In this document: in pieces, positions 1,424-47,856 of the stretch
Layout of the letters: the number at the start of each line of letters is the position of its first letter
Numbering within the stretch: the stretch's first letter is position 1
Virus record (IMG/VR): IMGVR_UViG_3300049448_000568
Span: 1-48,148 of that record
Source: a virus
Reading direction: 5' to 3' (one strand)
Length of the DNA stretch: 48,148 bases
The notes under the pieces: generated by a model
Seen by the model: the letters and a program-made list of their open reading frames with translations, nothing else
The model's database searches: none
What the model was told of the DNA's origin: nothing
Position numbers and translations under genes: made by a program

Positions 1424-2098
1424 TTAGCGAGGTTCCTCGGGAAAAAGGCGCTTGAACACCCCGTCGGGGTAATCGATCAGATGCTGCGTGAGCTCCCAGG
1501 TGTGCAGCCATCCCCCATCTATCAGCGGAAGGTGGGAGAGGAAATCTAGCCTGTTGGGGAGACCGTCATCAGTACGGAACGAGAAACCGTCTCTCGTCAC
1601 CATGGCTTCCAGCTTCAACACATCGATGTCGTAGAAGGCGATCTTGTGCTCCGCGCAAAAGCGCCGCTTCTGCGGAGTTGGGGCCGTTGTCGCAGTCAGC
1701 TCGAACACCGCGCTGATGCCCAGGTTGCTCTCGCACGCCACGTCGAAAATGAACATGGGCTTGAGATTACTGTCGAACGCTGCTTCTGCCGTTGGGTAAT
1801 GCGGAAAACCATTCTCGTGCAACCAGTTACCCGGGCCGAACTTCACCCCGAGCTGCGACCAGGAGAACAGCCGCCCCTTTGCTTTATGCGCGACCGGATA
1901 CACGTACTCAACCACGGTCGCCCCGTTGGTGTGGTCACTGCGGATTGGCCCGTACCGAGTCCACACCCTCTTGACGACGCTCTGCACCACCAGCTTCGCG
2001 TCGAAGTGTGCTTCCGACTCCCGATTTCGGAACGCCGTCTTTCTGCGGTACTCGGACGCGGACATGCCGTAATCAGAGTAGTCGGAGTAGTCGTTCAT
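1424..2098 (-). CDS. hypothetical protein, possible PD-(D/E)XK-like nuclease, 224 aa
   Basis: The N-terminus is Tyr/Asp-rich (MNDYSDYSDYGMSASEYRRK). The C-terminal half contains FDVACES, then AVFELTATTAPTPQKRRFCA and AFYDIDV. This order of a buried acidic strand, a second strand ending in Glu, a Lys-rich helix and a final strand recalls competence CoiA-like PD-(D/E)XK proteins, but the match is by eye and weak. The ATG overlaps the polymerase stop as ATGA and AGGAGAT precedes it. Coupling to the polymerase fits a DNA-processing role. Confidence 0.55.
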   Translation of the reverse strand: MNDYSDYSDYGMSASEYRRKTAFRNRESEAHFDAKLVVQSVVKRVWTRYGPIRSDHTNGATVVEYVYPVAHKAKGRLFSWSQLGVKFGPGNWLHENGFPHYPTAEAAFDSNLKPMFIFDVACESNLGISAVFELTATTAPTPQKRRFCAEHKIAFYDIDVLKLEAMVTRDGFSFRTDDGLPNRLDFLSHLPLIDGGWLHTWELTQHLIDYPDGVFKRLFPEEPR

Positions 2099-5000
2099 TT
2101 GCCGTATCTCCTGGACATGATTTCTGGTTTGCTGAAAACAGGCATACCTTGCGCCCACGCCGGCGCGGTCCGCATCTCGCGTTCCAGCCAGTCGCGCCAC
2201 GCCGGGCCGTGCTGCTCGGGAACCTCGAGGACGATTTCGTCGTGCACATGGAACGCGATCGACGCTCCCGCGCGGTCGGCGCGCAGCATGACGTCGGCGA
2301 GCAGGTCGCGACAGAAGCCCTGCACCGCGTTCTCGTAGATCTTCCCACTGTAGGTCCGGCGCTGCAGGACCTTGCCGTTGACCGCGTTGTCGTACACGAT
2401 CACCTGCCGCCGATCGTCGAAGGGGTCGCGCTCCATCCGCGCGTTCCAGTAGGTGATCACGCGCCCGCTGGGCAGACGCATCTCCACGCAGTCGGGCTTC
2501 CTCTCGAAGCTCAGCTTGCCCGCCGGGAGAACTGTGGTGCGGTTGCTCTGCAGCAGCGCCGTGAACTGGTTCTGGCACTCGTGCCACTTTTTCACGACTT
2601 TGTCGTATTTCATCCGGTATCCGTTGATGATCGCCTGCGGGTCGATCCCCAGCCCCTTCAGGTCGACACCGAGCGGACCCGCCATTCGGATCACCGCGTT
2701 CGGGCCGCCGCCGAAACCTGCGCTCAGAATTCCAATCTTACCGCCGCCACGTTCGCGCTTCGTGACCGTCAGCGGGTTCTTGCCGAAGATGGTGCCGGCC
2801 AGAATCTGGTAGGTGTCGGGAACGTTCGGATCCTTGCCGTCCGGGTGAACTTCGTCGGCCGCGTCCTTGCGCCGGTAGTCCACCAGCCCTTCTTCGTCGT
2901 CGGCCAGCCAGAGCACGCCGCGCGCTTCGACCGACGCGAAGTCACCGACCACGAACACGTTGCCCGGCGCCGGCACGATGATGCCGCGGATCAGGCTGCC
3001 GAGCAGCTCGTACGGCGGTTGGCCCTTGCATAGCTCGTTGAACTTCTCACGATCCTGATTCTCCACCGCCTGCGCGGCGGCCGCCAAGTCGAACTCTTCG
3101 TTCGGCCTCTTCATGTTCTGAATTTGGATCTGGTATCCACTCCACCTGCCGGTGGACGCGCCGTGATAGCGCAGCTGCCCCTTGGCGCGCCCGTCGGCTG
3201 ACACGCACTTCAGGGCCTTGTCGACCTTGGCCAGCGCGGCGCGGCTGACCGCCAGCCGGCACCGAATCACCTCCACCACCTCGTGCGCGATGATCCCGGT
3301 CTGGTCCGCGGCGCTCTTGGACTCCTCCTGCTCCTCGTACAAGTTGACCAGCTTCTGCAACGTCTCCAGCTTCATGTCGGGCAGCTGGAGCTGGCTCGGC
3401 AGGTTGAGGTTCAGCTGCTCGCGCAGGAAGTCCCCGCGGGTCAGGTCCGCGCGGGTGACGGACCCGTCGGTGAGCTGCTCGACGTAGGCCCCAGCCACCA
3501 CCTTGAACTCTTCGTCGAAGTCGCGCAGCGTGGTGGCGAACTGCTTGTCGATGCAGATGCCCCAGTAGTTGATCTTGTGGTGGAGATCGCAGACGTCCTG
3601 CTCCCACTCGGGCGTGGCGTTGAGTCCGAACTTCTGCGCGATCCCGTAGCTGATGTCGGTGTCCCGGAAATTGTAGTTCAAGATGTTCTGGATAACGTAG
3701 TCGGTCAGCGGCGGCAGGTCGCCGGTGTCCGGATTCGGGCCCCAGATCCGACTGATGAACCGCTTGCCCTCTTCATCCTTACCCATGCCGAACAGGGTGA
3801 GCCCCGCTTCGTCGGCGCCGGCGGCCAGGCCTTTCGACAGGGTGCGGTCCATCGTATCGCGCCATGCCAGGGGCTCGGGGAGCTTGAGCGTGCGGGTCCA
3901 GATCGCGCGCTCGAACCCGACGTTGTGGGCCACGATCACGCAGCCCGCCGGGTCGGTCACCATGTCGCGCAGGAAATCGAGCCCGTGCTCGTACTCGACG
4001 CCGGTCGGCATCGTCAGCTTGTACTCGAGCTCGGTCCAGTAGATCCGCCGGCCGTCGACGATGATCGCCGCGCACATGACCTTGGTCGACGGGTGCTCGG
4101 CGTATACGTAGCCGCCGTGCCACCGCAGGTTGCAGGCCGACTGGGTCTCGAAGTCCAGGTAGGCAATGACCGGGTCGGTGAACTCGGTGGGGTCCAGCAC
4201 GAAAGGCTCCTCGTCGCCGAGCTCGGGCAGGGGTTGGAGCGCTGCCGCCGCGGCGGGCGCGACTGTGGGGGCCTCTGCCGGCGCAGCGCGTCGAACCGGC
4301 GGCCACGTCGCAAACAACTCTGCGTTGACGCTCCGGGCTCGAGATCGCGCGCGACCCGCCTCGACCAGCCGGACGTACGAACGCGCGCCCCACGACCGGA
4401 TGTCGAACTCGACCGCCTTCACCCCGTCCCTGAAAGCGTACATCTTGGGCAAGTGCAGTTGGAAGGGGTCCAGCACATGCTTCAGGTTCTCGGCTGCGTG
4501 CAGCCGGTCCTCGTCGCGCTGGCCGCTGCTGCCTTTGCCGAGCGACTCCACCAAGAGTTGGCAGGTCGCGCCGACGGTCCCGGCCTTGTTCCAGTCGATG
4601 AACCGGCTGCCGCGGCCCACGCGCTTCTGAGTCGTCCCGTCCTCCTCGGGGCTCGCTGCGATCCGCTCGATCAGTTCGACCACCAGATCCTTGACCGCGT
4701 CGTGAGTGTCGGTGCCGCCGGCTTCGGCCTCCAACAAGGGGATGTCCAGCATCGCCATCTTGACCGCGAACGACGTCTTGCTGCCGGGCGGGAAATACTC
4801 GTCGATGACCCACGAGTGTAGCGCATGGGCCGCCTTGGTGAGCTCCGGTGTCGCCATCCACCACTTCTCGACCATGTGGCCCATCTTCTCCCAGCTGGTA
4901 GTCAGCCGGCTGTCGAGGCGCAGCAGGTGGACGCGGCGTCCGAACTGCTGGTCCTGGGAGAAGAACGCCGGGATGCGCCAATCGGTGAAGATCACCGCGT

Positions 5001-6987
5001 TGTTGAACGGCGGGCTCTCGGCCCCCTTGTAATTCTTGTAGTGGGTGAACGCGGCCCGGTTCAGCCGGGTGGTGAATGCGTGCAAGTGCCGGTAGTCGGC
5101 CGGGTTCTTGGCGAAGTCGTCGAACACCAGCAGGCGCGACAGGCGCATCGCGTCGCCGACCGACTGGTTGAGCCGCTCCTCCTGGATGCCCGACAAGTCC
5201 TGGAACAGTTCCCCATACATCTCGGTGACGATCCGAATGGTGGTGGTCTTGGCCGCCTCGGTTGGGCCCGTGGCCCACAGCATCGGCGGCGGTCCTTCGC
5301 CCGACTCCGCGCAGCCCATGGCGATGATCAAGGCGCGGATGTATTGAAGATTGGCCCCCGGAAAGTAGGCAGTGATCGCGGCCTCGGCTTCGGCCAAAGG
5401 CATGCGGTTTTTCAGCGCCACGTAGCTGACCCGGGCCTGGGTCGTCCGTACCTTCGGCTTGCACCGGATGACGCTACCGCTGGACGCGTCCCGGTTGTGC
5501 ACCAGGAAGATCGGCTCGAACGAGTAGGCCTGGATCGGGATCCAACCGGGCAGCCGCCCGTTGTTGGTGTGTGCCGTGATGTAGGCCTGTCGCGGCTTCG
5601 ACACGTCCTCCTCTTTGTCGTAGCGCTGGCACGACGGCAGGATCGACACGTCGGCGCCGGTCAGCCGCTGGGCTTCGAGCAGCGTGTCCTTGTGGAGCCA
5701 GTGGCCGTCGCCGCGGACAAAAAAGAACGGGTGGAACGCGGCCTCGATTCGCTGGATGCTGTCCTTCTTGACTTTGAGTGCTTCTTTGTGGGTCGCCTTC
5801 AACTGCGCCGAGTACAGCGGATGCCGCAACGACTCGGGCAGGTTGGGGAACAGCTCGGTGAACAGGTAGTCCACATGCTCGACGTGGACGATGTTCTCGA
5901 ACGCGTAGCGGATCGGCGCCAGCGCGTACTGGTTCTCGAGTGCCATGCCGCGCGAGCGCCGAATGTAGCCCCAGGTCATGTTGCCGCGCCCGATGCGCCC
6001 GTGGCAGGAGTGGCAGTACAAGCCGTGCTTGTCGACATAGATCGGCGTGGGGCTGGTTGACTTGTGCTCCGGGTCGATCAGGCAGTACGAGTGGTCGAGC
6101 CGCTCGCCGCCCTTGAGCCCCATCAGGTCCATGATCTCGGCGACCTCTTCCTCGGTCGCTTCGGCTTTCGAGAAACGCTCCAGCACTTTCAGGTGGTCCG
6201 TAGGGATGGAGTCCATCACCCGGCCGCAGCGTTGGCCTTTCTGCGGGGACCCCGGGTGGCGCGTCTTGTTGATCACCTCCACGGTGCCGCGAGCTCGGAG
6301 CACCGGGATCAAGGTCAACAGCTGAGCTGCCGCCGCCGCGGCGAGTTCTTGCGCCGTGTACAGGTCGTTCGGGGTAGCGGTGTAGATCGCTTTCAGGCCG
6401 CCGCCTTGCGTGCGCCACCAGCACAGCGGCGCCGGTGCGAGCTCGCGGCCAAGCTCGTCGAGGCCTTCGTTGTCCAACCGCTCGGGCGCCTCGTGGTCGT
6501 GGAAGTCCACGTCCAGGCACGCCAGGTATTTCAGGGTCTCGGCGTCCCACTCCAGCAGCGTGTCCGGGGCCTCGATCTGCTTGTGCAGGATCGCCAAGAT
6601 CCCGACCGCGCTGGAGATCTCTCCATAGACCAGTGCTTCTTTTTTCGGCTGCTGGATCGTCCGCTGGGTGAGCTGGTACGGCGGGGTCGGCTTCCAGGTT
6701 TTCTCTTCGGGCTTGCCCGCCTCTGCTTTTTCCTTTTCCTTGATCTCGGCCAGCCAGCCCTTGTACAAGCGGGTCAGCTGCAGGAACTCGCCGGCGCTCA
6801 GGTTGATCTCGCGCTCCAACTGTCGCGTCGCGGCGCCGCCGCCCATGTTGAACGCGGCAAACAGCCGCTCTTGGCCTAAACCGTCCTGGTACTCGATCCG
6901 GACGAAGTCCGGGAATCCTTTTTCTGCGGGGGTGAGATGCAGCGTCCGACCTCCGACGAGGTCGACGATCAGCGGCTCGATTGGCAT
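2095..6987 (-). CDS. fused primase-helicase-family A DNA polymerase, 1630 aa
   Basis: The chain carries several replication motifs in order. D159xD161 (CLDVDFHD), then WWRTQGGGLKAIY (about 190-203) and RHPGSPQKGQ (about 241-250), resembles the archaeo-eukaryotic primase fold. C302, H308, C325 and C328 form a CHC2-like zinc site. GPTEAAKT (574-581) and LLVFDD (D623, D624) are Walker A and B of an SF3/VirE-like helicase. LDFET (D945, E947), HNVGFE (E1026) and FRDTD form a DEDD 3'-5' exonuclease. DFASVEAR (D1349), K1417 and HVHDE (H1582-E1584) are polymerase motifs A, B and C. Phage family A polymerases are usually 600-800 residues with helicase and primase as separate proteins, so this fusion is unusual. 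Start ATG has GGGAAGG upstream. Polymerase and exonuclease assignments are firm, helicase good, primase tentative. Confidence 0.9.
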   Translation of the reverse strand: MPIEPLIVDLVGGRTLHLTPAEKGFPDFVRIEYQDGLGQERLFAAFNMGGGAATRQLEREINLSAGEFLQLTRLYKGWLAEIKEKEKAEAGKPEEKTWKPTPPYQLTQRTIQQPKKEALVYGEISSAVGILAILHKQIEAPDTLLEWDAETLKYLACLDVDFHDHEAPERLDNEGLDELGRELAPAPLCWWRTQGGGLKAIYTATPNDLYTAQELAAAAAAQLLTLIPVLRARGTVEVINKTRHPGSPQKGQRCGRVMDSIPTDHLKVLERFSKAEATEEEVAEIMDLMGLKGGERLDHSYCLIDPEHKSTSPTPIYVDKHGLYCHSCHGRIGRGNMTWGYIRRSRGMALENQYALAPIRYAFENIVHVEHVDYLFTELFPNLPESLRHPLYSAQLKATHKEALKVKKDSIQRIEAAFHPFFFVRGDGHWLHKDTLLEAQRLTGADVSILPSCQRYDKEEDVSKPRQAYITAHTNNGRLPGWIPIQAYSFEPIFLVHNRDASSGSVIRCKPKVRTTQARVSYVALKNRMPLAEAEAAITAYFPGANLQYIRALIIAMGCAESGEGPPPMLWATGPTEAAKTTTIRIVTEMYGELFQDLSGIQEERLNQSVGDAMRLSRLLVFDDFAKNPADYRHLHAFTTRLNRAAFTHYKNYKGAESPPFNNAVIFTDWRIPAFFSQDQQFGRRVHLLRLDSRLTTSWEKMGHMVEKWWMATPELTKAAHALHSWVIDEYFPPGSKTSFAVKMAMLDIPLLEAEAGGTDTHDAVKDLVVELIERIAASPEEDGTTQKRVGRGSRFIDWNKAGTVGATCQLLVESLGKGSSGQRDEDRLHAAENLKHVLDPFQLHLPKMYAFRDGVKAVEFDIRSWGARSYVRLVEAGRARSRARSVNAELFATWPPVRRAAPAEAPTVAPAAAAALQPLPELGDEEPFVLDPTEFTDPVIAYLDFETQSACNLRWHGGYVYAEHPSTKVMCAAIIVDGRRIYWTELEYKLTMPTGVEYEHGLDFLRDMVTDPAGCVIVAHNVGFERAIWTRTLKLPEPLAWRDTMDRTLSKGLAAGADEAGLTLFGMGKDEEGKRFISRIWGPNPDTGDLPPLTDYVIQNILNYNFRDTDISYGIAQKFGLNATPEWEQDVCDLHHKINYWGICIDKQFATTLRDFDEEFKVVAGAYVEQLTDGSVTRADLTRGDFLREQLNLNLPSQLQLPDMKLETLQKLVNLYEEQEESKSAADQTGIIAHEVVEVIRCRLAVSRAALAKVDKALKCVSADGRAKGQLRYHGASTGRWSGYQIQIQNMKRPNEEFDLAAAAQAVENQDREKFNELCKGQPPYELLGSLIRGIIVPAPGNVFVVGDFASVEARGVLWLADDEEGLVDYRRKDAADEVHPDGKDPNVPDTYQILAGTIFGKNPLTVTKRERGGGKIGILSAGFGGGPNAVIRMAGPLGVDLKGLGIDPQAIINGYRMKYDKVVKKWHECQNQFTALLQSNRTTVLPAGKLSFERKPDCVEMRLPSGRVITYWNARMERDPFDDRRQVIVYDNAVNGKVLQRRTYSGKIYENAVQGFCRDLLADVMLRADRAGASIAFHVHDEIVLEVPEQHGPAWRDWLEREMRTAPAWAQGMPVFSKPEIMSRRYGK

Positions 6988-7183
6988 AGACCTTCCCTAG
7001 GCGTCAGCTCGGCGCCCAACGCACCACCCTACCAGGGTCGGTTGCCGCCGACCAAACCCCGGGAAGGTGTTAGGGCGGTGGGGCAGTGCGTAGAGCGTCG
7101 AACAGCTGGTAGGCAGTACCAGCGTGCCCGCACTGTGTGGCCCGGGATGGGCGCGTCAAGTGGCGGGCTGAGGTGGACCGGCA

Positions 7184-7212
7184 ACACTACGCGTCCGGGA
7201 TTTCAAATGCAA
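7184..7212 (-). promoter_or_regulatory. candidate promoter for the polymerase operon
   Basis: TTGCAT, 17 bases, TAGTGT on the minus strand. The -35 sits inside CCCCCTTGCAT, the same string found in the candidate promoter at 1374-1401. The -10 is poor, so support comes mostly from the shared string and from the position about 200 bases before the polymerase start. Confidence 0.3.
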
Positions 7213-7369
7213 GGGGGCTTGCCCTGGTGCGGTCTGTCTGGGCCTACTGGAAAATTGGAGGCGACTTTTGTGCTAGTCAGGCCACCCGCGGGCCCGGTAG
7301 TAAGCTAGGGTAACCTACTTTCCATTGTTTCTCGGCAAGTGCTTGCGGTTACAGGCCGGAAATTCGACT

Positions 7370-7567
7370 GCTACACCGCACAAGTGTCAGTTGTGCAAAT
7401 AGGTCCTGTAGCCTCAAGCACATACCCCAGACCGCTACAAAGCAGCAAAAAGAAGTTTGCATACAACTCTTTCTTGATTTACCAGTATTGGTTCAACTGT
7501 TGCAAAGCCGGGGCGATCGGGGACCCTCACTCACCCCCAGAATAACAATAGGGGGTGGTTTTGTAGC
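7370..7567 (+). ncRNA. candidate structured non-coding RNA (or structured origin)
   Basis: Complementary segments nest without conflict. GCTACA 7370-7375 pairs with TGTAGC 7407-7412 and encloses GCACAA 7378-7383 with TTGTGC 7391-7396. GCTACA 7434-7439 pairs with TGTAGC 7562-7567 and encloses TTTGCA 7456-7461 with TGCAAA 7501-7506. That stem in turn encloses TTGA 7474-7477 with TCAA 7493-7496 and ACCA 7481-7484 with TGGT 7489-7492. A 7-bp hairpin followed by TTTT closes the 3' side. No RNA family is recognised, and short stems can arise by chance. Confidence 0.35.
7532..7562 (+). terminator. terminator-like hairpin
   Basis: CACCCCC (7532-7538) pairs perfectly with GGGGGTG (7551-7557) around a 12-base AT-rich loop and is followed by GTTTT on the plus strand. 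No plus-strand protein gene precedes it, so either a small RNA from the intergenic region ends here or the structure belongs to an origin. Confidence 0.5.
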
Positions 7568-7675
7568 AGTTCCGGCTAACTGCTTTCGCCGCAACGGATT
7601 GACTGAATGTGCGACCCTTGTGCAGTGGGTTGTGCAGTTCGCTCCGCGGAGACTGAGCTTGCACTAATCCAGCGC

Positions 7676-7693
7676 TAGACTAGAAGCAGTCTA
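7676..7693. promoter_or_regulatory. palindrome, candidate operator of the adjacent RHH gene
   Basis: TAGACT and AGTCTA form perfect 6-base arms around six bases, ending seven bases before the ATG of the ribbon-helix-helix gene. A weak promoter (TTGCAC 7659-7664, 16 bases, TAGAAG 7681-7686) has its -10 inside the palindrome, as expected for autorepression. Confidence 0.4.
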
Positions 7694-7699
7694 CCTACC

Positions 7700-8056
7700 A
7701 TGCCCAAACCCACGCAGCTTCCCGTCCAGTTCCCGCCGGACGTCCTAAGTCAACTTCGTCGCCAGAGCGCCGAGTCCGGCCGCAGCATCGCCGCCCTGGT
7801 CCGCGAGGCTGTCGACCGCTACCTGAACCCGACCGAAGCGAAGATCTCCGCTTCGGCCCTGTGGTCGATCCTGCGCGACCCCGCCCACTGGCTCGAGTTC
7901 AAGCGGATCGCCGCCGAGATGGAAGCCGCGACCCCGCCCGAGCTCCCCGCTGCTCCGCCAGCACCCGCCGAGCCGCCGGCGCCGGCCTACCGATTCAAGC
8001 GGGCTGAGGGTGTGGCTGCGCGAGCTGTGGCCGAGGAAGAAAGGCCGCCATTTTGA
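7700..8056 (+). CDS. ribbon-helix-helix DNA-binding protein, 118 aa
   Basis: Residues 7-43 (LPVQFPPDVLSQLRRQSAES, then GRSIAALVREAVDRYL) have the beta strand plus two helices of CopG/Arc-type proteins. Such proteins bind palindromic operators as dimers. The C-terminal half is a Pro/Ala-rich linker (about 72-95) with a basic end. No clear Shine-Dalgarno precedes the ATG, so the transcript may be leaderless-like or the site is weak. The palindrome at 7676-7693 is a natural candidate target, and the toxin-antitoxin pair follows directly. Confidence 0.7.
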   Translation: MPKPTQLPVQFPPDVLSQLRRQSAESGRSIAALVREAVDRYLNPTEAKISASALWSILRDPAHWLEFKRIAAEMEAATPPELPAAPPAPAEPPAPAYRFKRAEGVAARAVAEEERPPF

Positions 8057-8106
8057 CGTCGGTTGACTTCGCCCGTACGTTTGTACAAAGACAGCAGGAG
8101 CACCTC

Positions 8107-8343
8107 ATGCCTGCAGTCGCCGAATTCCGCAAGGCCATCCCCCGCAGCCTGCGCCGCGTCAGCCAGGGCCAGTCCGTCCGCCTCACCAAGCACGGCCGCC
8201 TGGTGGCGGTGCTCCGTCCGCCGACCGAGGACGAGCTCGACGAGGAGCTGGGCAAGAACTGCGTCCGCGAGCTCAAGCGCATGAAGGGCAAGAAGTGGCT
8301 GGTGGTCGAGGACGCCCGCGACCTGAACAAGATCTTCGGATGA
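8107..8343 (+). CDS. Phd/YefM-type antitoxin, 78 aa
   Basis: The sequence MPAVAEFRKAIPRSLRRVSQ, then GQSVRLTKHGRLVAVL, follows the Phd/YefM fold, where an N-terminal DNA-binding half is followed by a toxin-wrapping tail (here acidic then basic, ending NKIFG). In this family the antitoxin neutralises its partner and represses the shared operon. The start was chosen at the ATG with AGGAG nine bases upstream rather than a TTG inside the previous gene. The stop overlaps the toxin start as ATGA, the usual coupling of such pairs. Confidence 0.7.
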   Translation: MPAVAEFRKAIPRSLRRVSQGQSVRLTKHGRLVAVLRPPTEDELDEELGKNCVRELKRMKGKKWLVVEDARDLNKIFG

Positions 8344-8612
8344 TCCGCCACAAGGTCATATTCGCCACGCAAGCTCAGCATTGGCTCGCTTCCGCTGAAG
8401 CCCCGGTTCGCGGCGCCATCGGGCACGCCTTGTACAAGCTGCAGTGCGACCCGAGCGACGGCGACGTCTCGCTGCTCCGAGACGTGAAGCACGACGGCAA
8501 ACCGGTACGACGCCTGCGGGTCGGCAGCTACCGGGTGGGCTTCCAGCTGGTCGGCAACGTGCTGGTGGTGATCTCGGTCCTCTGGATCGACAAGCGCGGC
8601 GATTCCTACTAG
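8340..8612 (+). CDS. RelE/ParE-family toxin, 90 aa
   Basis: The C-terminal half, VRRLRVGSYRVGFQLVGN followed by VLVVISVLWIDKRGDSY, matches the conserved end of RelE-superfamily toxins, where the basic RxRxGxYR strand is central to activity. Length and coupling to a Phd-like antitoxin fit a type II toxin-antitoxin module. RelE-type members cleave mRNA on ribosomes and ParE-type members poison gyrase; the sequence alone does not separate them here. In a phage this could stabilise a prophage or exclude competitors. Confidence 0.75.
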   Translation: MIRHKVIFATQAQHWLASAEAPVRGAIGHALYKLQCDPSDGDVSLLRDVKHDGKPVRRLRVGSYRVGFQLVGNVLVVISVLWIDKRGDSY

Positions 8613-27478: not shown

Positions 27479-29041
27479 ATGATCAAGCTCGCCACCATCA
27501 CCGAGACCCCCGCCGCCGCTCCGGCCCGCGTGTGGAGCCCTTACCAGGAGGCCATTTTCCGGGCCTTCACCGAGGGCAGCGGCAACATCACGGTCGAAGC
27601 AGTCGCCGGCGGGGCCAAGACCAGCTCGCTGCTGGAGGCTCTGAAGCGCTGGCAGGCCGTCCCGGCGAACCGCGGCAAGCGCGCCATGTTCTGCGCGTTC
27701 AACAAGTCGATCGCTGACGAGCTGAGCCGCAAGGTCCCGGCTGGCGTTGAGGCCCGCACCTTGCATTCCCTCGCGTTCAGCGCGGTGGCGCGCCGGTTCA
27801 AGGGCATCAAGGTCGACGACTACAAGCTGCGCGACACGGCGCACATGGTGGCGGTCGCCGCTCTCGGCCAGCAGGACGCGGAGCGGGTCAACACCGCCGT
27901 GGCCGACATGACCAAGGTCTACGGGCTGCTGCGCGGCACGATGACCAACCTGACCGACTCGGATGCGGTGGCCGAGACGGTCGCGGCCTACGGCACCGGT
28001 CTGGACGCCCCGACCGATAGCCTGCCCCTGCTCAACGAGCTGGACCAGGCGATGAAGAGCGACACCGGTCGCTGCACGTTCACCGAGATGCTGACCTTCG
28101 CCATCGACTTCAGCATTCCGCTCCCGCGCTACGATTTGCTCTGCATCGACGAGAGCCAGGATCTCAACCGCCTGCAGATCGAATTGCTGAAGCGCGCCCT
28201 GGCGCCCGGCGGCAGGCTCGTCGCCGTAGGCGACTCGAGACAGAGTTTGTACCTATTTCAAGGGTCAGACGCCCGCGCGATGGAGCGGATCCGCGAGGAG
28301 TTCGACGTGTCGCAGGGCAACCAGTTGCCGCTCAGCGTGACCTACCGTTGCCCGCGCGCGGTGGTGGCGTTGGCGCAGACCTGGGTGCCGCACATCCAGG
28401 CCGCGGACGGCGCGATCGAGGGGGAAGTGATCCAGCGGACCGGCAAGCAGTTCGCCGAGACCCTGAAAGGCCTGGAGCCTGAGAGCATGATCATTTGCCG
28501 GGTCAACGCTCCGCTGGTGGGCGTGGCGCTGCGCCTGATCGCCATGGGCAAGAAGGCCTGCGTCCGCGGTCGGGACATCGGCAAGAACGTGTCGAAGCTG
28601 GTGGCCAAGCTGTCCAAGCGGATGGACGATCGGGACGTGGTGGCGTTCGTCGAGCGGGTCACGGCTTACGGCGACACCGAGTCGGCCAAGCTGCTGAAGG
28701 CCCGGAAGGACAGCCAGGCCCAGCAGGTGCAGGACCTGTGCGAGACTCTGCTGGCGCTCTTGGAGGGGATCGACACGATCAGCGCCCTGCAGCGCCGGAT
28801 CGACGCGCTGTTCTCGGACGAGCGGGTCGGGATCACCTGTTCGTCGGTGCACAAGGCAAAGGGCACAGAAGCGGCCGTCGTCGTGTGGTTGGGCCCCGAG
28901 AAAAACGACCAGATGGAAGAGCGGGCCCGCAGCGAGAGCGCACGGATACAGGAATCGAATAATCGCTACGTCGCGGTCTCGAGGGCGATGAGGACCCTGA
29001 TCATCCAACCGCTGCCCCCGAAGAAAGGTGAGGACGAATGA
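27479..29041 (+). CDS. UvrD/PcrA-like superfamily 1 helicase, 520 aa
   Basis: All SF1A motifs are in order: WSPYQEAI (Q23), Walker A AVAGGAKTS (41-49), TLHSLAFSA (motif Ia-like), CIDESQDL (Walker B), VAVGDSRQSLYLFQGSD (III), LSVTYRCPRAV (IV), SSVHKAKGTEA (V) and RYVAVSRAM (VI). Length is shorter than UvrD (about 720), so accessory domains are reduced. The Walker A has Ala in place of the Gly before Lys. Such enzymes unwind DNA 3' to 5' in repair, recombination or rolling-circle replication. Its stop overlaps the next gene, a likely endonuclease. Confidence 0.9.
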   Translation: MIKLATITETPAAAPARVWSPYQEAIFRAFTEGSGNITVEAVAGGAKTSSLLEALKRWQAVPANRGKRAMFCAFNKSIADELSRKVPAGVEARTLHSLAFSAVARRFKGIKVDDYKLRDTAHMVAVAALGQQDAERVNTAVADMTKVYGLLRGTMTNLTDSDAVAETVAAYGTGLDAPTDSLPLLNELDQAMKSDTGRCTFTEMLTFAIDFSIPLPRYDLLCIDESQDLNRLQIELLKRALAPGGRLVAVGDSRQSLYLFQGSDARAMERIREEFDVSQGNQLPLSVTYRCPRAVVALAQTWVPHIQAADGAIEGEVIQRTGKQFAETLKGLEPESMIICRVNAPLVGVALRLIAMGKKACVRGRDIGKNVSKLVAKLSKRMDDRDVVAFVERVTAYGDTESAKLLKARKDSQAQQVQDLCETLLALLEGIDTISALQRRIDALFSDERVGITCSSVHKAKGTEAAVVVWLGPEKNDQMEERARSESARIQESNNRYVAVSRAMRTLIIQPLPPKKGEDE

Positions 29042-29922
29042 GCGTCGAAGTAGGCACACAGGTAGCCGCCCCGATGGGCAACTACTTCCCCCTGGCCAAG
29101 GATCGGCAGGGGGAATCGGTGGTGTCGTTCGACCGGCACGGGCACTACTTCGTGGGGCGTACAGCCCCGATCTACGAATTGGTGAAGGTGGTCGAAGAAG
29201 ACTACACGGGCCCTACCTATCTGGTGGAGGCCGGCGCCTACAGCGTTCGCGCGTCTCCGGGGCAAAAGTGGCTCGCGAAATTTACTTCCCGAGACCAGGC
29301 TCTGTGGGTGAACTACCTCATGAAGCGCGGCTCCGACTTCCGTGTGGGTTGGTGCCAGTTTTTCGACGGTAACGGGTCCAACCACCTCACCCTGCGTACA
29401 CGCATCGAGTGCGCCGACTCCATGTGGGTGCTGAAGGTGCACCACTCGAAGGCCGACGCGTCGCTCGAAGAAAGTTTCGTGGCCGCGCGCTTTGGTCTTC
29501 CCCTGGTCATGTTCAAGGAATCGCATCCGGTCGGGTCGCCCGTTCCGGCGGTGTACACGCAGAAGAGACTCGACCGTTTCTTCAAGGACTACCGCGCCGC
29601 CCTTGGCTCTGAGGTCGATGAACGTGTAGCAGCTTGCTTAGCGCACTACCAGCGCGATCTCCGATATCCCTTTGCGCGTGTGGGCGCGTGGGAATATCGG
29701 CGCGGGCGCACCACCAATTTCTGCACTGAGAGCTGCAATCTCCTGACCGACGTCATGAGCGTTGCGACGCGCGTAAGCGAGGGACGTGAGACGCACTGGC
29801 TCAAGGTCTCCGCTGCGCGGGAGCCCAAGATGCTCCGCCGCAGAATGTGCTCCGCTGCCGCGTCCAAGCACGGCTACATCCTCGTCAATGGTATCCTCGC
29901 TGCACCCAACGAAAGCCGCTAA
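29038..29922 (+). CDS. Hint/GIY-YIG-like homing endonuclease, 294 aa
   Basis: Residues 60-80 (YLVEAGAYSVRASPGQKWLA) resemble the Hint (intein) block B, but Gln replaces the usual His. WVNYLMKRGSDFRVGWCQF is GIY-YIG-like (Y..YLM..G..RVG), followed by RTRIECADSMWVLKV and LEESFVAARFGLPLVMF carrying candidate catalytic Arg and Glu. The C-terminal SKHGYILVNGIL resembles the end of Hint domains. Together these suggest a free-standing homing nuclease derived from Hint plus GIY-YIG parts, not an active intein. The assignment is by pattern and moderately secure. It overlaps the helicase stop by ATGA. Confidence 0.55.
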   Translation: MSVEVGTQVAAPMGNYFPLAKDRQGESVVSFDRHGHYFVGRTAPIYELVKVVEEDYTGPTYLVEAGAYSVRASPGQKWLAKFTSRDQALWVNYLMKRGSDFRVGWCQFFDGNGSNHLTLRTRIECADSMWVLKVHHSKADASLEESFVAARFGLPLVMFKESHPVGSPVPAVYTQKRLDRFFKDYRAALGSEVDERVAACLAHYQRDLRYPFARVGAWEYRRGRTTNFCTESCNLLTDVMSVATRVSEGRETHWLKVSAAREPKMLRRRMCSAAASKHGYILVNGILAAPNESR

Positions 29923-39447: not shown

Positions 39448-40038
39448 ATGGCGCGCATCATCGACCCGACCCAGCGCGTCCAGCCAGAGCGCACCCTCAA
39501 GTACTGGCTCGAGTCGTTTGGCTGCGTCCAGGAGTGCGCCGCGGACGCGTCCGACAACTCCGAGATCAAGCGCAGCGTCGACGACAATATCAAGCTGCTG
39601 CGATCCCGGGTGAAGGAGAAGGCCGACCCGCAGGCCCCGCAGCTGCTGGAGCAGCAGCTCCTGATCCGGGCCCAGATGTGGGTGCGCCGGCCGGAGATGC
39701 ACAACGAGATGATGAAGCTCTGGCGCCAGGCCGCGCAGGAGATCAAGATCTTCGGCTGGGACCTCGGCGAGCCGGTGCACTACGAGGAGGTCTCGAAGGG
39801 CGGCAAGCTCCGGTTCTGGCAGGGCGACAAGGACAAGCCGCCGACCGATCGCAAGTACCAGATGGACCGGCTCACCGCGGTGATGGCGATCAAGTTCCTG
39901 AAGTTCGTGGCGGCCGAGAGCCAGACCAACGACCCGGTCGAGTACACCAAGCAGACCCTGCTGAAGCAGGGGATCAACGCCGACAACTTCCACCTCTACG
40001 CGGACCGGCTCGCGTTCCCGAACCCGTGGACCTCCTGA
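39448..40038 (+). CDS. hypothetical protein, 196 aa
   Basis: Mostly helical with charged stretches (LRSRVKEKADPQAPQLLEQQ, MHNEMMKLWRQAAQEIKIFG). The segment KGGKLRFWQGDKDKPPTDRK is basic. It has the feel of a phage DNA- or protein-binding factor but matches no family I know. GGAG is upstream, and its end overlaps the serine recombinase start by 13 bases. Confidence 0.6.
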   Translation: MARIIDPTQRVQPERTLKYWLESFGCVQECAADASDNSEIKRSVDDNIKLLRSRVKEKADPQAPQLLEQQLLIRAQMWVRRPEMHNEMMKLWRQAAQEIKIFGWDLGEPVHYEEVSKGGKLRFWQGDKDKPPTDRKYQMDRLTAVMAIKFLKFVAAESQTNDPVEYTKQTLLKQGINADNFHLYADRLAFPNPWTS

Positions 40039-40991
40039 CCCCGATCACCACCGAAGACGAGCTCTACCGGCGGATCCAAGCAGCGATCAAGCCGGCGATC
40101 TGGGGCTACGTCCGGGTGTCGTCCGACAAGCAAGAGGACGGCCAGTCACCGGAGGTCCAGTGCGACGAGATCCGGGCCTACTGCGCCGACCGGTTTCCCG
40201 GCGAGCCGGTGATCCTGGTGCAGGAGGCCGCCAGCGCGGCCCTGCCGATGTTCACGGTCACGCTGCCGGGCATGAAGTCGACCGGGCCGTCGACGGTGGC
40301 GGAGGCCCCACGGCCGCTGTTCAGCATGCTGCTGGTCGGGCTGAGCGACCGGCCGAAGTCGAAGCTGGTGGCCTGGAAGTTCGACCGGCTCGCGCGGGTG
40401 GCGTCCGAGCAGGAGATGTTCCTGTCGTTGTTCCGGCGCTACGAGATCGAATTCCACCTGGCGTACGCCGGCGAGCGGCACTTGGTCGAAGGCGGGGCCA
40501 GCGCCGACCAGGACCCGGTGCGCCACCTGATGCGCCAGATCCTGGCGTGCTTCGCCGAGTACGAGCGCCGGATGATCCAGCTCCGGATGAGCATGGGAAC
40601 CCGCAAGAAGAAATCGAAGGGTGGATGGATCGGCGGGTCGATCCCCTACGGGTACGCGGTGCGCGCCGGCGAGCTGGTCGTGGTGCCCGAAAAAGCCCCG
40701 GTCGTGGTGGCGGTTTTCCGGTACCGACAGGTGTACCGGTACACCTACCGGCAGATCTGCGAGTTGCTGGCGGCCCAGTTCGGCGACGAGACGTGGTACC
40801 CCATGCGCATCATGCGGATGCTGGACAACCGGGAGCTGTACGCCGGCAAGCTGTACTCGTCCCTGCGCCCCGACCTCAAGATCCTGCCCGACACCTGGGA
40901 AGCCGCGGAGTCGATCATCGAAGCCGCATCGCGCTACCCGAAAACCCCGAACGAAGAGGCACCATCGTATGGCCACACCGCAGAACAATGA
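40026..40991 (+). CDS. serine recombinase, 321 aa
   Basis: WGYVRVSSDKQ carries the nucleophile Ser (S32), KFDRLARV and EYERRMIQLRMSMG complete the resolvase catalytic domain, and GGWIGGSIPYGYAV begins the recombinase domain. Large serine integrases are usually 450-600 residues with a zinc ribbon and coiled coil; this protein ends after the recombinase domain, so it is either a short form or truncated. A 30-residue insertion-like region (TVTLPGMKSTGPSTVAEAPR) lies in the catalytic domain. GTG start without a clear ribosome site. Confidence 0.85.
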   Translation: MDLLTPITTEDELYRRIQAAIKPAIWGYVRVSSDKQEDGQSPEVQCDEIRAYCADRFPGEPVILVQEAASAALPMFTVTLPGMKSTGPSTVAEAPRPLFSMLLVGLSDRPKSKLVAWKFDRLARVASEQEMFLSLFRRYEIEFHLAYAGERHLVEGGASADQDPVRHLMRQILACFAEYERRMIQLRMSMGTRKKKSKGGWIGGSIPYGYAVRAGELVVVPEKAPVVVAVFRYRQVYRYTYRQICELLAAQFGDETWYPMRIMRMLDNRELYAGKLYSSLRPDLKILPDTWEAAESIIEAASRYPKTPNEEAPSYGHTAEQ

Positions 40992-44845: not shown

Positions 44846-46208
44846 GCGCGCCATCCTCCCCGCGCAGTACGCAGAGATCGCGGCAGCCTACCGGGCCGGC
44901 GCGACCACCGTGGCATTGGCGGTTCAATACCGCGTCTCCGAAGGGACCATTCGGATGGCGGTGATCGCGCGCGGAGAAAAGATCCGTCCGCGCGCAGAGC
45001 GGTCTCGGCGCATGCACGCCGCGGCCGGGCGGGGTACGAAGCGGAAACCCCCCGGCCGCGGCGTGTGGCCGCGCATCCCGGCTGACGAGTGGGCGCAGCT
45101 CCGCGCGACCAAGTCGGAAGACGAGTTGGTCGCGCACTTGGAAGCGGTACTGAAGGGCTGCCCGATTCCGTACCCCAAGATATCGGACCAGAAAGCCGCA
45201 GAGGCGTTCGACGACTTGTGCATGCTGCCGTTCGATCGGCTGTTCGGCGAGGGGCCCATCGCTCTGTTACGAAGCCCCGACGCACCGCAGGCGCCCTACC
45301 ACTTGGCGCTGAAGCCTCCCGGCAATGCGGCGTCCAACCAGTTGTTCTACGTTCAGCGTTGGGCAACACCGCGCGCCGAAGCACCGAGCGTAGAGCGGCG
45401 CTGGCACGACCCCGAGCTCCGTCGCAAGGTATATCGCCGCTTCTTGAAGCTGAGCGGCGTGCACGAGGTATCGCCGGCCACCATGCGTCAGGCCTTGTGT
45501 GTGACGGGCGGCACCCCCTCGCAGTTCAAGCCGGGCGTGGCGCGGGCGCTGTACGAACTCACCGGTGCGCAGGACGTGCTCGATTTCAGCGCCGGCTGGG
45601 GCGATCGGCTGGTCGGATTCTGCGCCGCACCAGGCACGCGCCGCTACGTAGGCATCGACCCTAACCGTGCGCTGCACCCGCTCTATCAAGAGGTGGCGGC
45701 GCGGTACGCCAGAGGCAAGAGCACCGAGTTCATCTGCGGACCCGCCGAAGAGGCGCTTCTGCCGGCGGCGAGCTTCGACCTGGCGATGACCAGTCCCCCC
45801 TATTTCGGGGTTGAGCGCTATGCGGCCGGGGCCGAGTGGGCTCGAGACCAATCGTGGGCGCGCTACGCCACTGCCGAGGCGTGGCGGGCGGGCTTCTTGG
45901 CCCAAGCTATCCGGCGGGTATGGGCGGCGCTGCGCCCGGGCGGGGTGCTGGCGGTTAACCTGGCAGACGTCAAGGTGCGTGGCGAGCAGATTCCTCTGTG
46001 CGCATGGCTACGGCAGGAGGTGACCGCCTGTGAAAGCTCGGTGCCGCTACCCGTCATCGGCCTACGGCTGCAGGCGGGCAACTACTCCACGATTGACCGT
46101 ACGCGCCTGAGCGGCGAGCCGGTGTGGATGTGGTCGAAGGGGGCACTGGGCCGGCCATTCAAGTCGGTGCATCGTAACATAACTGAGGAAGTGCGGCCAG
46201 CGCTTTGA
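44838..46208 (+). CDS. DNA methyltransferase-like protein with N-terminal HTH, 456 aa
   Basis: TSPPYFG (SPPY at 319-322) is motif IV of amino-DNA methyltransferases, and VLDFSAGWGDRLVGF (247-261) is motif I. VGIDPNRALHPLY follows as motif II. The N-terminal HTH (LPAQYAEIAAAYRAGATTVA, then LAVQYRVSEGTIRMAV) may give targeting. Base specificity (N6-A or N4-C) cannot be told. The start at GTG with CAGGAAG upstream is preferred over an ATG at 44763 lying inside the endonuclease gene. No cognate restriction enzyme is adjacent. Confidence 0.8.
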   Translation: MGRRAILPAQYAEIAAAYRAGATTVALAVQYRVSEGTIRMAVIARGEKIRPRAERSRRMHAAAGRGTKRKPPGRGVWPRIPADEWAQLRATKSEDELVAHLEAVLKGCPIPYPKISDQKAAEAFDDLCMLPFDRLFGEGPIALLRSPDAPQAPYHLALKPPGNAASNQLFYVQRWATPRAEAPSVERRWHDPELRRKVYRRFLKLSGVHEVSPATMRQALCVTGGTPSQFKPGVARALYELTGAQDVLDFSAGWGDRLVGFCAAPGTRRYVGIDPNRALHPLYQEVAARYARGKSTEFICGPAEEALLPAASFDLAMTSPPYFGVERYAAGAEWARDQSWARYATAEAWRAGFLAQAIRRVWAALRPGGVLAVNLADVKVRGEQIPLCAWLRQEVTACESSVPLPVIGLRLQAGNYSTIDRTRLSGEPVWMWSKGALGRPFKSVHRNITEEVRPAL

Positions 46209-46235
46209 CGGCCCAGGATGCTGACATGAACAAGA

Positions 46236-46263
46236 AAAACCCCGGCCTTTCGACCGGGGTTTT
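46236..46263. terminator. bidirectional intrinsic terminator
   Basis: AAAACCCCGG (46236-46245) pairs with CCGGGGTTTT (46254-46263) around eight bases. T runs occur on both strands, so it can end both the plus block and the convergent minus genes. Confidence 0.9.
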
Positions 46264-46282
46264 GTCGTCCAGCGCAGCGTAA

Positions 46283-46300
46283 CGCCTGCCGTAGCAGGCG
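46283..46300. terminator. second hairpin between convergent genes
   Basis: CGCCTGC and GCAGGCG form seven base pairs with a four-base loop just past the end of the 189-residue gene. Without a T tract it may act as a partial terminator or a 3' stability element. Confidence 0.4.
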
Positions 46301-46306
46301 CTTAGC

Positions 46307-46876
46307 TCACTGGATTTCGCGCAGCAGCTCGCCTTCCAGGAAGAGATGGAGCGTCAGGGTGACGCTCAGGCCGGTGGCGATGTCCAGCTGGACATAGAAG
46401 TTCTGCACCGGGGGAAGGTAGATGGAATGCAGCAGCGAGTAGATGTTGCGCTGCTCCGGGCGACCGGCGTTGGCGTAGACGGTCGAGGCGGTGATCGCCA
46501 CGGCCGGGACCACGGTCTGGGCTTCGAGGCCAGTGCCGGCGGTCAGGATGAAGGCGGGGATGGTCAGGTAGACCTTCTCGCCGACCTGCACCTTGTAGCT
46601 GCCGCGCTGGAAGAACGCGGAGGCATCGGCGTAGGTCGCGACCGAGGCGTAGCCCAGCACCTGGCGCAGGGCCCGGATGCTGAAGCGCTTCGGCCAGCTG
46701 AGCTGTCCGGCGGTCTGCAGGTTGGTCAGCAGCGCGCTGCGGCCGGCCGAGCCGGTCGAGAACAGCGTGACGCTGGTCTGTGAGGTGAGGGCGACGCTGT
46801 CGTACAGCGGCTGGTGGATCGCCTCGAGGCGGATGGAGCCCGAACGGGCGTCCTTGACGGTGCGGAAAACGGGCAT
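46307..46876 (-). CDS. possible virion protein, 189 aa
   Basis: Beta-rich, Ser/Thr-rich and nearly Cys-free (LTSQTSVTLFSTGSAGRSAL, VYLTIPAFILTAGTGLEAQT), ending EGELLREIQ. The look is that of a small capsid or decoration protein, but no family is recognised. GGAGGAG is the strongest ribosome site in this part of the window, consistent with high expression. It lies downstream of the gene at 47071-47856, which may be co-transcribed. Confidence 0.6.
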   Translation of the reverse strand: MPVFRTVKDARSGSIRLEAIHQPLYDSVALTSQTSVTLFSTGSAGRSALLTNLQTAGQLSWPKRFSIRALRQVLGYASVATYADASAFFQRGSYKVQVGEKVYLTIPAFILTAGTGLEAQTVVPAVAITASTVYANAGRPEQRNIYSLLHSIYLPPVQNFYVQLDIATGLSVTLTLHLFLEGELLREIQ

Positions 46877-47070: not shown

Positions 47071-47856
47071 TCAGTTCAGGTAGGTCTCCATGTACTTGCT
47101 GGCGTCGGTCAGGTAGCCGTCCACGCCGGCGAGGTCGTCGCTGGCCAGGTCGTCTTCCATGTCCCCGGTGCCCTGGTAGGCCTTGGCGTCGACGTAGCCG
47201 TCGACCGAGTCGTCTTCCATGTCCCCGGTGCCCTGGTAGGCCTTGGCGTCCACGTAGCCGCCGGTGCCCTGGTAGGCCTTGGCGTCGACGTAGCCTTCCA
47301 TGCCGTTCACCGGACCGCGGACCGCGGCGGCGGGGGCGGAGGCGACCGCGGCGGGGCCGACGATCGGGGTGCGGTAGACCAGCGAGGCGATCATGCCGGG
47401 CGAGACGAGCTCGACGATCGAGGCCGCGGCGCCGCCGACGGCCAGGGCCTTGCCGATGTTGCCCTTGACGAACTTCGAGGCCAGGAAGCCGATGGTGAAC
47501 GGGGTCAGGCCGCCGACCACCCGCTTGCCGATCGGGCTGGTCAGGATCGCGCCGCCGCCGAAGCGGGCCAGCATCGGGGCCACGAACTGCGCGGTGAGGA
47601 TGCCGCCCAGCGCGTAGGTGCCGACGGCGCCGCCGGCGGTGAACAGGAGGGTCTTCAGCTTGTGGTGCTTGACCACGCTGAGGACTTCGGAGGGAGCGCG
47701 CTTGAGAGCGCCGACGTACTGCTTGGCGATGCCCATGGTGGGATTCCTTTTGCTGTGACGGTGGTGGCGACCGCCACGGCGCGACGTGCGGCGTGAACGC
47801 GGGTTGCCGAGGAGAGCGAGATGGAGGCCAGGGTTGGACAGCAGCATGAGCGGCAT
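47071..47856 (-). CDS. basic, hydrophobic, repeat-containing protein, 261 aa
   Basis: The N-terminus has NPG...GNPRSRRTSRRGGRHHRHS and RNP, an Arg-rich 'NPxxRR' pattern I have seen in phage proteins of unknown role. Two Gly/Ala/Val-rich segments (about 68-93 and 112-142) could insert in a membrane. Residues 188-231 contain three GYVDAKAYQGTG units, two followed by DMEDD. It could be a membrane-bound virion or injection protein. An alternative start at residue 41 (MGIAKQYVGA) has AAGGAA upstream and is also plausible. Confidence 0.6.
   Translation of the reverse strand: MPLMLLSNPGLHLALLGNPRSRRTSRRGGRHHRHSKRNPTMGIAKQYVGALKRAPSEVLSVVKHHKLKTLLFTAGGAVGTYALGGILTAQFVAPMLARFGGGAILTSPIGKRVVGGLTPFTIGFLASKFVKGNIGKALAVGGAAASIVELVSPGMIASLVYRTPIVGPAAVASAPAAAVRGPVNGMEGYVDAKAYQGTGGYVDAKAYQGTGDMEDDSVDGYVDAKAYQGTGDMEDDLASDDLAGVDGYLTDASKYMETYLN
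47164..47295 (-). repeat. in-frame tandem repeats encoding GYVDAKAYQGTG
   Basis: Three 36-base units at 47260-47295, 47224-47259 and 47164-47199. The two left copies with their DMEDD extensions are nearly identical over 51 bases (47209-47259 and 47149-47199), so the duplication is recent or maintained. Confidence 0.85.

Follow-up and report, generated by a model that had tools for sequence, protein, structure and literature searches.

The AT-rich stretch at 7320–7567 of an uncultivated GC-rich phage is, on balance, better read as a double-stranded DNA control region that binds proteins than as a structured RNA, and we judge the chances that it holds a replication origin to be about even. This makes the region an origin or operator candidate for a group of uncultivated GC-rich phages with a fused replicase. 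The window, meaning the whole stretch of DNA analysed, is the 48,148 bp of IMG/VR record IMGVR_UViG_3300049448_000568 (65.7% GC). Positions 7320–7567 fall within a 712-bp non-coding gap (6988–7699), flanked by the replicase gene (−) on one side and by a ribbon-helix-helix (RHH) gene (+) on the other:

2095–6987, minus strand: replicase, 1630 amino acids, with a family A DNA polymerase at the C-terminus (PF00476, phrog_17)
7320–7567, unstranded: non-coding AT-rich stretch that forms the core of the control region or origin proposed here
7431–7505, unstranded: AT-rich tract (37% GC), a candidate unwinding element; the window has its lowest-GC 75 bp here
7700–8056, plus strand: RHH DNA-binding protein, weak Antitox_RHH match, with a counterpart (54% identity) beside the region in the relative described below

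The first 940 amino acids of the replicase matched no Pfam or PHROG family; helicase-like motifs (a Walker-A-like GPTEAAKTTT, and LLVFDDF) can be read in this N-terminal part, and AlphaFold models of residues 1–500 and 500–935 gave no usable structure (mean pLDDT 37 and 32, respectively). The protein may be a fusion of primase, helicase and polymerase, in which case it would compare with the four-in-one replicase GP55, the polymerase of which belongs to family B (PMC12205980). Downstream of the RHH gene, at 8053–8612 (+), lie a weak Phd/YefM-like antitoxin and then a RelE-like toxin; this pair was not seen at the corresponding place in the relative, though the RHH gene is kept there. An integrase/DNA-invertase-like protein at 39534–40991 (+; phrog_95, phrog_125) suggests a temperate lifestyle. 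A serine-recombinase att site was also considered for the stretch, the recombinase-like gene being 32 kb off.

Relatives were sought in viral contigs with the replicase, a replicase alignment, the helicase part, the RHH protein and three DNA patterns, and in genome contigs with the replicase and one DNA pattern. The sole close relative was IMGVR_UViG_3300005617_000004 (109.5 kb; hereafter L002), which has a polymerase/replicase 80% identical to that of the window and the same intergenic layout. A more distant contig, L015, also came from these scans (polymerase 27%), and searches of phage and plasmid collections for similar DNA returned chance-level matches only. All conservation evidence given here is accordingly a comparison of two genomes, the window and L002. 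The GGGTCGGTTGCCGCCGACC hairpin is not diagnostic on its own, since this sequence is also present in two unrelated contigs (L011 and L012).

An initial annotation had described 7320–7567 as AT-rich and lacking any protein-like frame, and both descriptions hold. Its GC content is 49.2% against 65.7% for the genome, and the lowest-GC 250 bp (7301–7550) of the window, like the lowest-GC 75 bp, are found here. The GC minimum of the 109.5-kb L002 (105441–105515) falls in the homologous region, among equivalent boxes. In the open reading frame at 7339–7545, substitutions relative to L002 are spread evenly over the three codon positions (31/33/27, compared with 33/23/93 in the polymerase control), ruling out a coding function for the stretch. 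A tRNA/tmRNA search found none.

Repeat boxes around the AT-rich tract

Most of the conserved blocks can be derived from a single motif, CYGC(T)ACAA, or from its inverse TTGTGCAG. The fuller box consensus is about GACYGC(T)ACAA (again with the inverse TTGTGCAG), and copies stand on either side of the AT-rich tract. The boxes and other conserved elements are:

7366–7375, plus strand: repeat box GACTGCTACA, identical in L002
7376–7397, unstranded: palindromic box pair CCGCACAA ... TTGTGCA (GCACAA-N7-TTGTGC), with the same spacing in L002
7430–7440, plus strand: repeat box GACCGCTACAA (L002: GACTGCTACAA); its distance to the first box is 64 bp in each phage
7485–7503, plus strand: small conserved inverted repeat GTATYGGTTCAAYYGTTRC, with one-side changes compatible with pairing
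7543–7556, unstranded: TAACAATAGGGGGT, the longest conserved block of the stretch; the arm proposed to pair with it on the 5′ side is not conserved
7559–7571, minus strand: repeat box TTTTGTAGCAGTT (= AACTGCTACAAAA), inverse orientation
7607–7640, minus strand: three tandem TGTGC[AG] boxes at 7608, 7619 and 7631, period 11–12 bp (11 bp in L002)

Blocks identical between the window and L002 are:

7365–7375: CGACTGCTACA
7377–7383: CGCACAA
7391–7397: TTGTGCA
7434–7440: GCTACAA
7490–7496: GGTTCAA
7543–7556: TAACAATAGGGGGT
7559–7567: TTTTGTAGC
7631–7638: TGTGCAGT

In the spacer between these blocks, identity with L002 drops to as little as 42%. Identical runs of at least eight bases exceed those of shuffled columns (11 of 1000 shuffles), and from 7268 to 7562 the distances from box to box match within 1–2 bases, as for the two GCTACA boxes 64 bp apart in both phages. 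The window contains seven copies of CYGC(T)ACAA, five of them clustered here within 255 bp; of the 12 in the 109.5-kb L002, four fall in the corresponding region. The pattern was picked after viewing the region. Because the box motif was chosen from the region itself, a motif-free test of repeated 7-mers was added, in which only 3 of 500 shuffles scored as high as 7360–7660 and none of 500 as high as L002. The excess needs the tandem boxes up to 7660; 7320–7567 taken alone showed no excess of repeated 7-mers (z −0.07). Elsewhere in the window, 47101–47400 has strong internal 7-mer repetition (z 18); it is a repeat block within a reading frame.

The near-fixed spacing, the presence of boxes in both orientations, the occurrence of the motif outside hairpins and the lack of a maintained overall fold (see below) point to protein-binding sites in double-stranded DNA. 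That proteins bind the boxes, and which proteins these are, we infer from the sequence. An initiator would bind the boxes cooperatively, an effect favoured by the near-constant distances, after which the AT-rich tract they enclose would open, allowing the replicase to load. Through the boxes, chiefly the tandem trio by the RHH gene, the neighbouring promoters could also be tuned by a DNA-binding protein, for which the RHH protein is the simplest candidate. The trio immediately precedes the RHH gene in both phages, an arrangement that suggests autoregulation.

Origins are usually built in this way, as an AT-rich region with repeats beside a replicase. The elements of an iteron origin can be recognised here: multiple short repeats in non-coding DNA, clustered in both phages; an adjacent AT-rich tract in the window and in L002; and an adjoining replication gene, the replicase starting at 6987 (−). 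GC skew, in which a switch would support an origin but is not essential to one, gave no clear switch at the region in the window or in L002, both of which may be fragments. The initial annotation had offered, as one option, a structured origin between the replicase and a regulator. The origin is plausible and fits better than the RNA, but as AT-rich, repeat-bearing DNA and not as a structured element.

The same boxes could instead form a purely transcriptional operator, at which the RHH protein, or some other regulator of the phage, would repress or couple the divergent promoters while replication starts elsewhere. Several features are in keeping with this arrangement: in each phage the tandem trio, spaced at the helical period, immediately precedes the RHH gene; that gene is retained beside the region; the flanking genes diverge, and L002 has a candidate promoter for either side; and no clear GC-skew switch is seen. 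However, the boxes are spread over 275 bp, beside the replicase and around the AT-richest tract in the genome, which exceeds the needs of a simple operator. We regard an operator with no origin as a rather unlikely alternative.

Folding potential of 7320–7567

Nested stems ending in a terminator hairpin had also been noted in the stretch, with a structured phage RNA as the other suggested reading. The predicted fold (−84.5 kcal/mol) is indeed better than dinucleotide shuffles, with z-scores of −3.55 (+) and −3.14 (−), and is thus about equally strong on both strands. Since 1.9% of the 258 windows of 248 nt in this phage reach a z-score of −3.55 or below, the fold is unusual without being exceptional. 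Stronger z-scores (−3.8 to −5.5) were seen at 45013–45260 and 29017–29264 (both strands) and at 46129–46376 (−).

The pairing is not maintained in the relative. The homologous stretch of L002 has z-scores of only −1.6/−1.5 and a different fold. Laid on the L002 alignment, the window fold retains 43 of 71 pairs (28 unchanged) and loses the other 28, and the 15 of 43 pairs with a changed base that still pair in L002 are about what chance would give. The main stem loses 10 of its 18 pairs and the closing, outer stem all five. The helices that survive in L002 are mostly those built of repeat boxes, and pairing between inverted box copies accounts for part of the fold. A strong intergenic fold in a single sequence therefore need not mean an RNA where inverted repeat boxes are present.

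The proposed terminator does exist as a 7-bp hairpin (CACCCCC, 7532–7538, with GGGGGTG, 7551–7557), followed by one G and then TTTT (7559–7562). As a terminator with a U-run it fails: the T run is limited to four, the loop is 12 nt, three of the seven pairs are broken in L002 and a terminator scan did not report it. A scan for promoters and terminators within 7320–7567 found neither.

A structured non-coding RNA transcribed on the plus strand through 7320–7567 and ending at the GGGGGTG-GTTTT hairpin would draw on the z-score of −3.55 for that strand, on a 10-bp stem of two boxes and a GCACAA/TTGTGC hairpin that can form in both phages, and on the helix at 7471–7523, which keeps 12 of 16 pairs in L002 with six double changes. 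Two 120-nt alignment windows over the region also reach z-scores of about −3, and the plus-strand alignment window 7366–7484 has a z-score of −3.5. Set against these are the weak and different fold of L002, the broken main stem and terminator, the survival of changed pairs at the chance rate, an opposite strand that folds as well, the absence of a promoter or terminator from the scan and the lack of an Rfam match. This makes such an RNA improbable. Slightly less probable still is a chance origin of the signal, in which the stems are accidental and the few similar motifs are remnants in an AT-rich, fast-evolving spacer. In its favour, equally good folds occur in about 2% of windows and parts of the spacer are 42% identical; against it stand the conserved blocks and repeats at near-fixed spacing with near-random divergence between them.

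Candidate replicase promoter and leader RNA

A promoter type of the phage's own, TTGAC[AT]-N17-CATAGT, occurs seven times without mismatch in the window, and in most cases AGCCTGGAAAGGGCA and a start codon come after it. The combined element TTGAC[AT]-N17-CATAGT ... AGCCTGGAAAGGGCANNNCATG, a promoter plus ribosome-binding element before many genes and common to L002, is apparently the phage's own expression cassette. These sites, together with the elements upstream of the replicase, are:

20590–20515 (−), 20988–20918 (−), 21300–21233 (−), 21347 (+), 23425 (+), 25831 (+) and 27416 (+): promoter plus ribosome-binding element
7132–7159, minus strand: candidate replicase promoter, −35 TTGACG (7159–7154), spacer 16, −10 CACAGT (7137–7132)
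7105–7123, minus strand: leader hairpin P0, GCUGGUACUGCCUACCAGC, 7 bp, identical in both phages
7007–7103, minus strand: leader long stem P1 plus inner hairpins, with four double compensatory changes and zero broken counted pairs
7061–7068, minus strand: ACCUUCCC, a leader loop that could form a pseudoknot with the ribosome-binding site, to which it is complementary
6990–6997, minus strand: GGGAAGGU, likely replicase ribosome-binding site, complementary to the leader loop

TTGACG-16-CACAGT is a good match to the phage promoter type and precedes the replicase, and the equivalent position of L002 has TTGACG-16-CATAGT. A second candidate, TTGCAW-17-TAGWGT, was set aside in favour of the phage-type TTGACG-16-CAYAGT. 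On the other side, a TTGCAA-17-TAGACT site in L002 faces the RHH gene. With the candidate promoter at 7159–7132, the replicase message should start near 7125 and so exclude 7320–7567, which lies about 200 bp upstream. Together with the pairing lost in L002 and the unconserved hairpin, this position argues against the structured RNA of the initial annotation.

That annotation had noted that its structure needed covariation. In 7320–7567 the fold as a whole lacks this signal; it appears 200–300 bp away, in the replicase leader (7007–7123, −), which by its conserved pairing is a structured RNA separate from the stretch. The consensus fold of the two phages has z-scores of −6.0 (−) and −7.2 (+) against column shuffles, with polymerase coding windows far weaker; the leader strand is assigned from the gene and promoter and not from folding energy. 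On the minus strand all 40 pairs are kept, with four double compensatory and two one-sided changes. Slid controls gave zero double compensatory changes, and column-dealing shuffles, a weak control with two sequences, equalled the result in 34 of 500 cases. A covariance model of the leader retrieved just the two leaders (and their reverse strand) from both genomes, and Rfam covariance models matched nothing in the window or L002 save one chance-level fragment. The loop ACCUUCCC can pair with GGGAAGGU over 8 bp (6 bp in L002), at −13.7 and −9.6 kcal/mol, values equalled by 3 and 22 of 1000 shuffles, respectively.

A conserved RNA structure in the 5′ leader is what an autogenous operator would have, and by analogy the role of the leader is probably translational control of the replicase. 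It is a candidate for control of a replicase by RNA structure, so far detailed mainly in T4-type phages. More speculatively, and with considerable doubt, the leader may represent an undescribed class of riboregulator, in which a branched stem and a loop–ribosome-binding-site pseudoknot set translation of the giant fused replicase, coupled with the adjacent RHH-read origin or operator. If so, replicase supply and origin firing would be set together through the leader and the RHH-read boxes.

Comparison with known systems

Typical iterons are 17–22 bp long and tandem. The boxes described here are short (8–11 bp) and scattered, and a RepA-type initiator was not recognised. What it shares with the iteron or AT-rich origins of phages, satellites and plasmids are non-coding repeats near a replication gene, in direct and inverted orientation, and an AT-rich tract; one example is the origin of the PLE satellite, which has a repeat bound by RepA (PMC7145576).

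The tandem trio resembles another class of site. Operators of RHH autoregulators of the Arc/MetJ/CopG type are short boxes repeated in tandem about once per helical turn, located just upstream of the RHH gene. The sites here are predicted, and further boxes lie as far as about 250 bp upstream of the trio. The box sequence is not known to match any named operator.

For the leader, the nearest parallels are in T4. The T4 gene 43 DNA polymerase is of family B, and its operator, like the leader described here, is an RNA structure in the message of a phage replicative polymerase, beside the ribosome-binding site. The T4 operator is an 18-base hairpin, for which evidence of a pseudoknot is absent (PMC3014915). 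By comparison, the leader here is branched, about 100 nt or more in length, has a possible pseudoknot between loop and ribosome-binding site and precedes a family A polymerase, with regulation as a candidate function. The leader of T4 gene 32 contains a pseudoknot (PMC3014915), as is proposed here for the message of another phage replication protein; the present one is predicted from just 6–8 complementary bases, and both the protein and the architecture differ.
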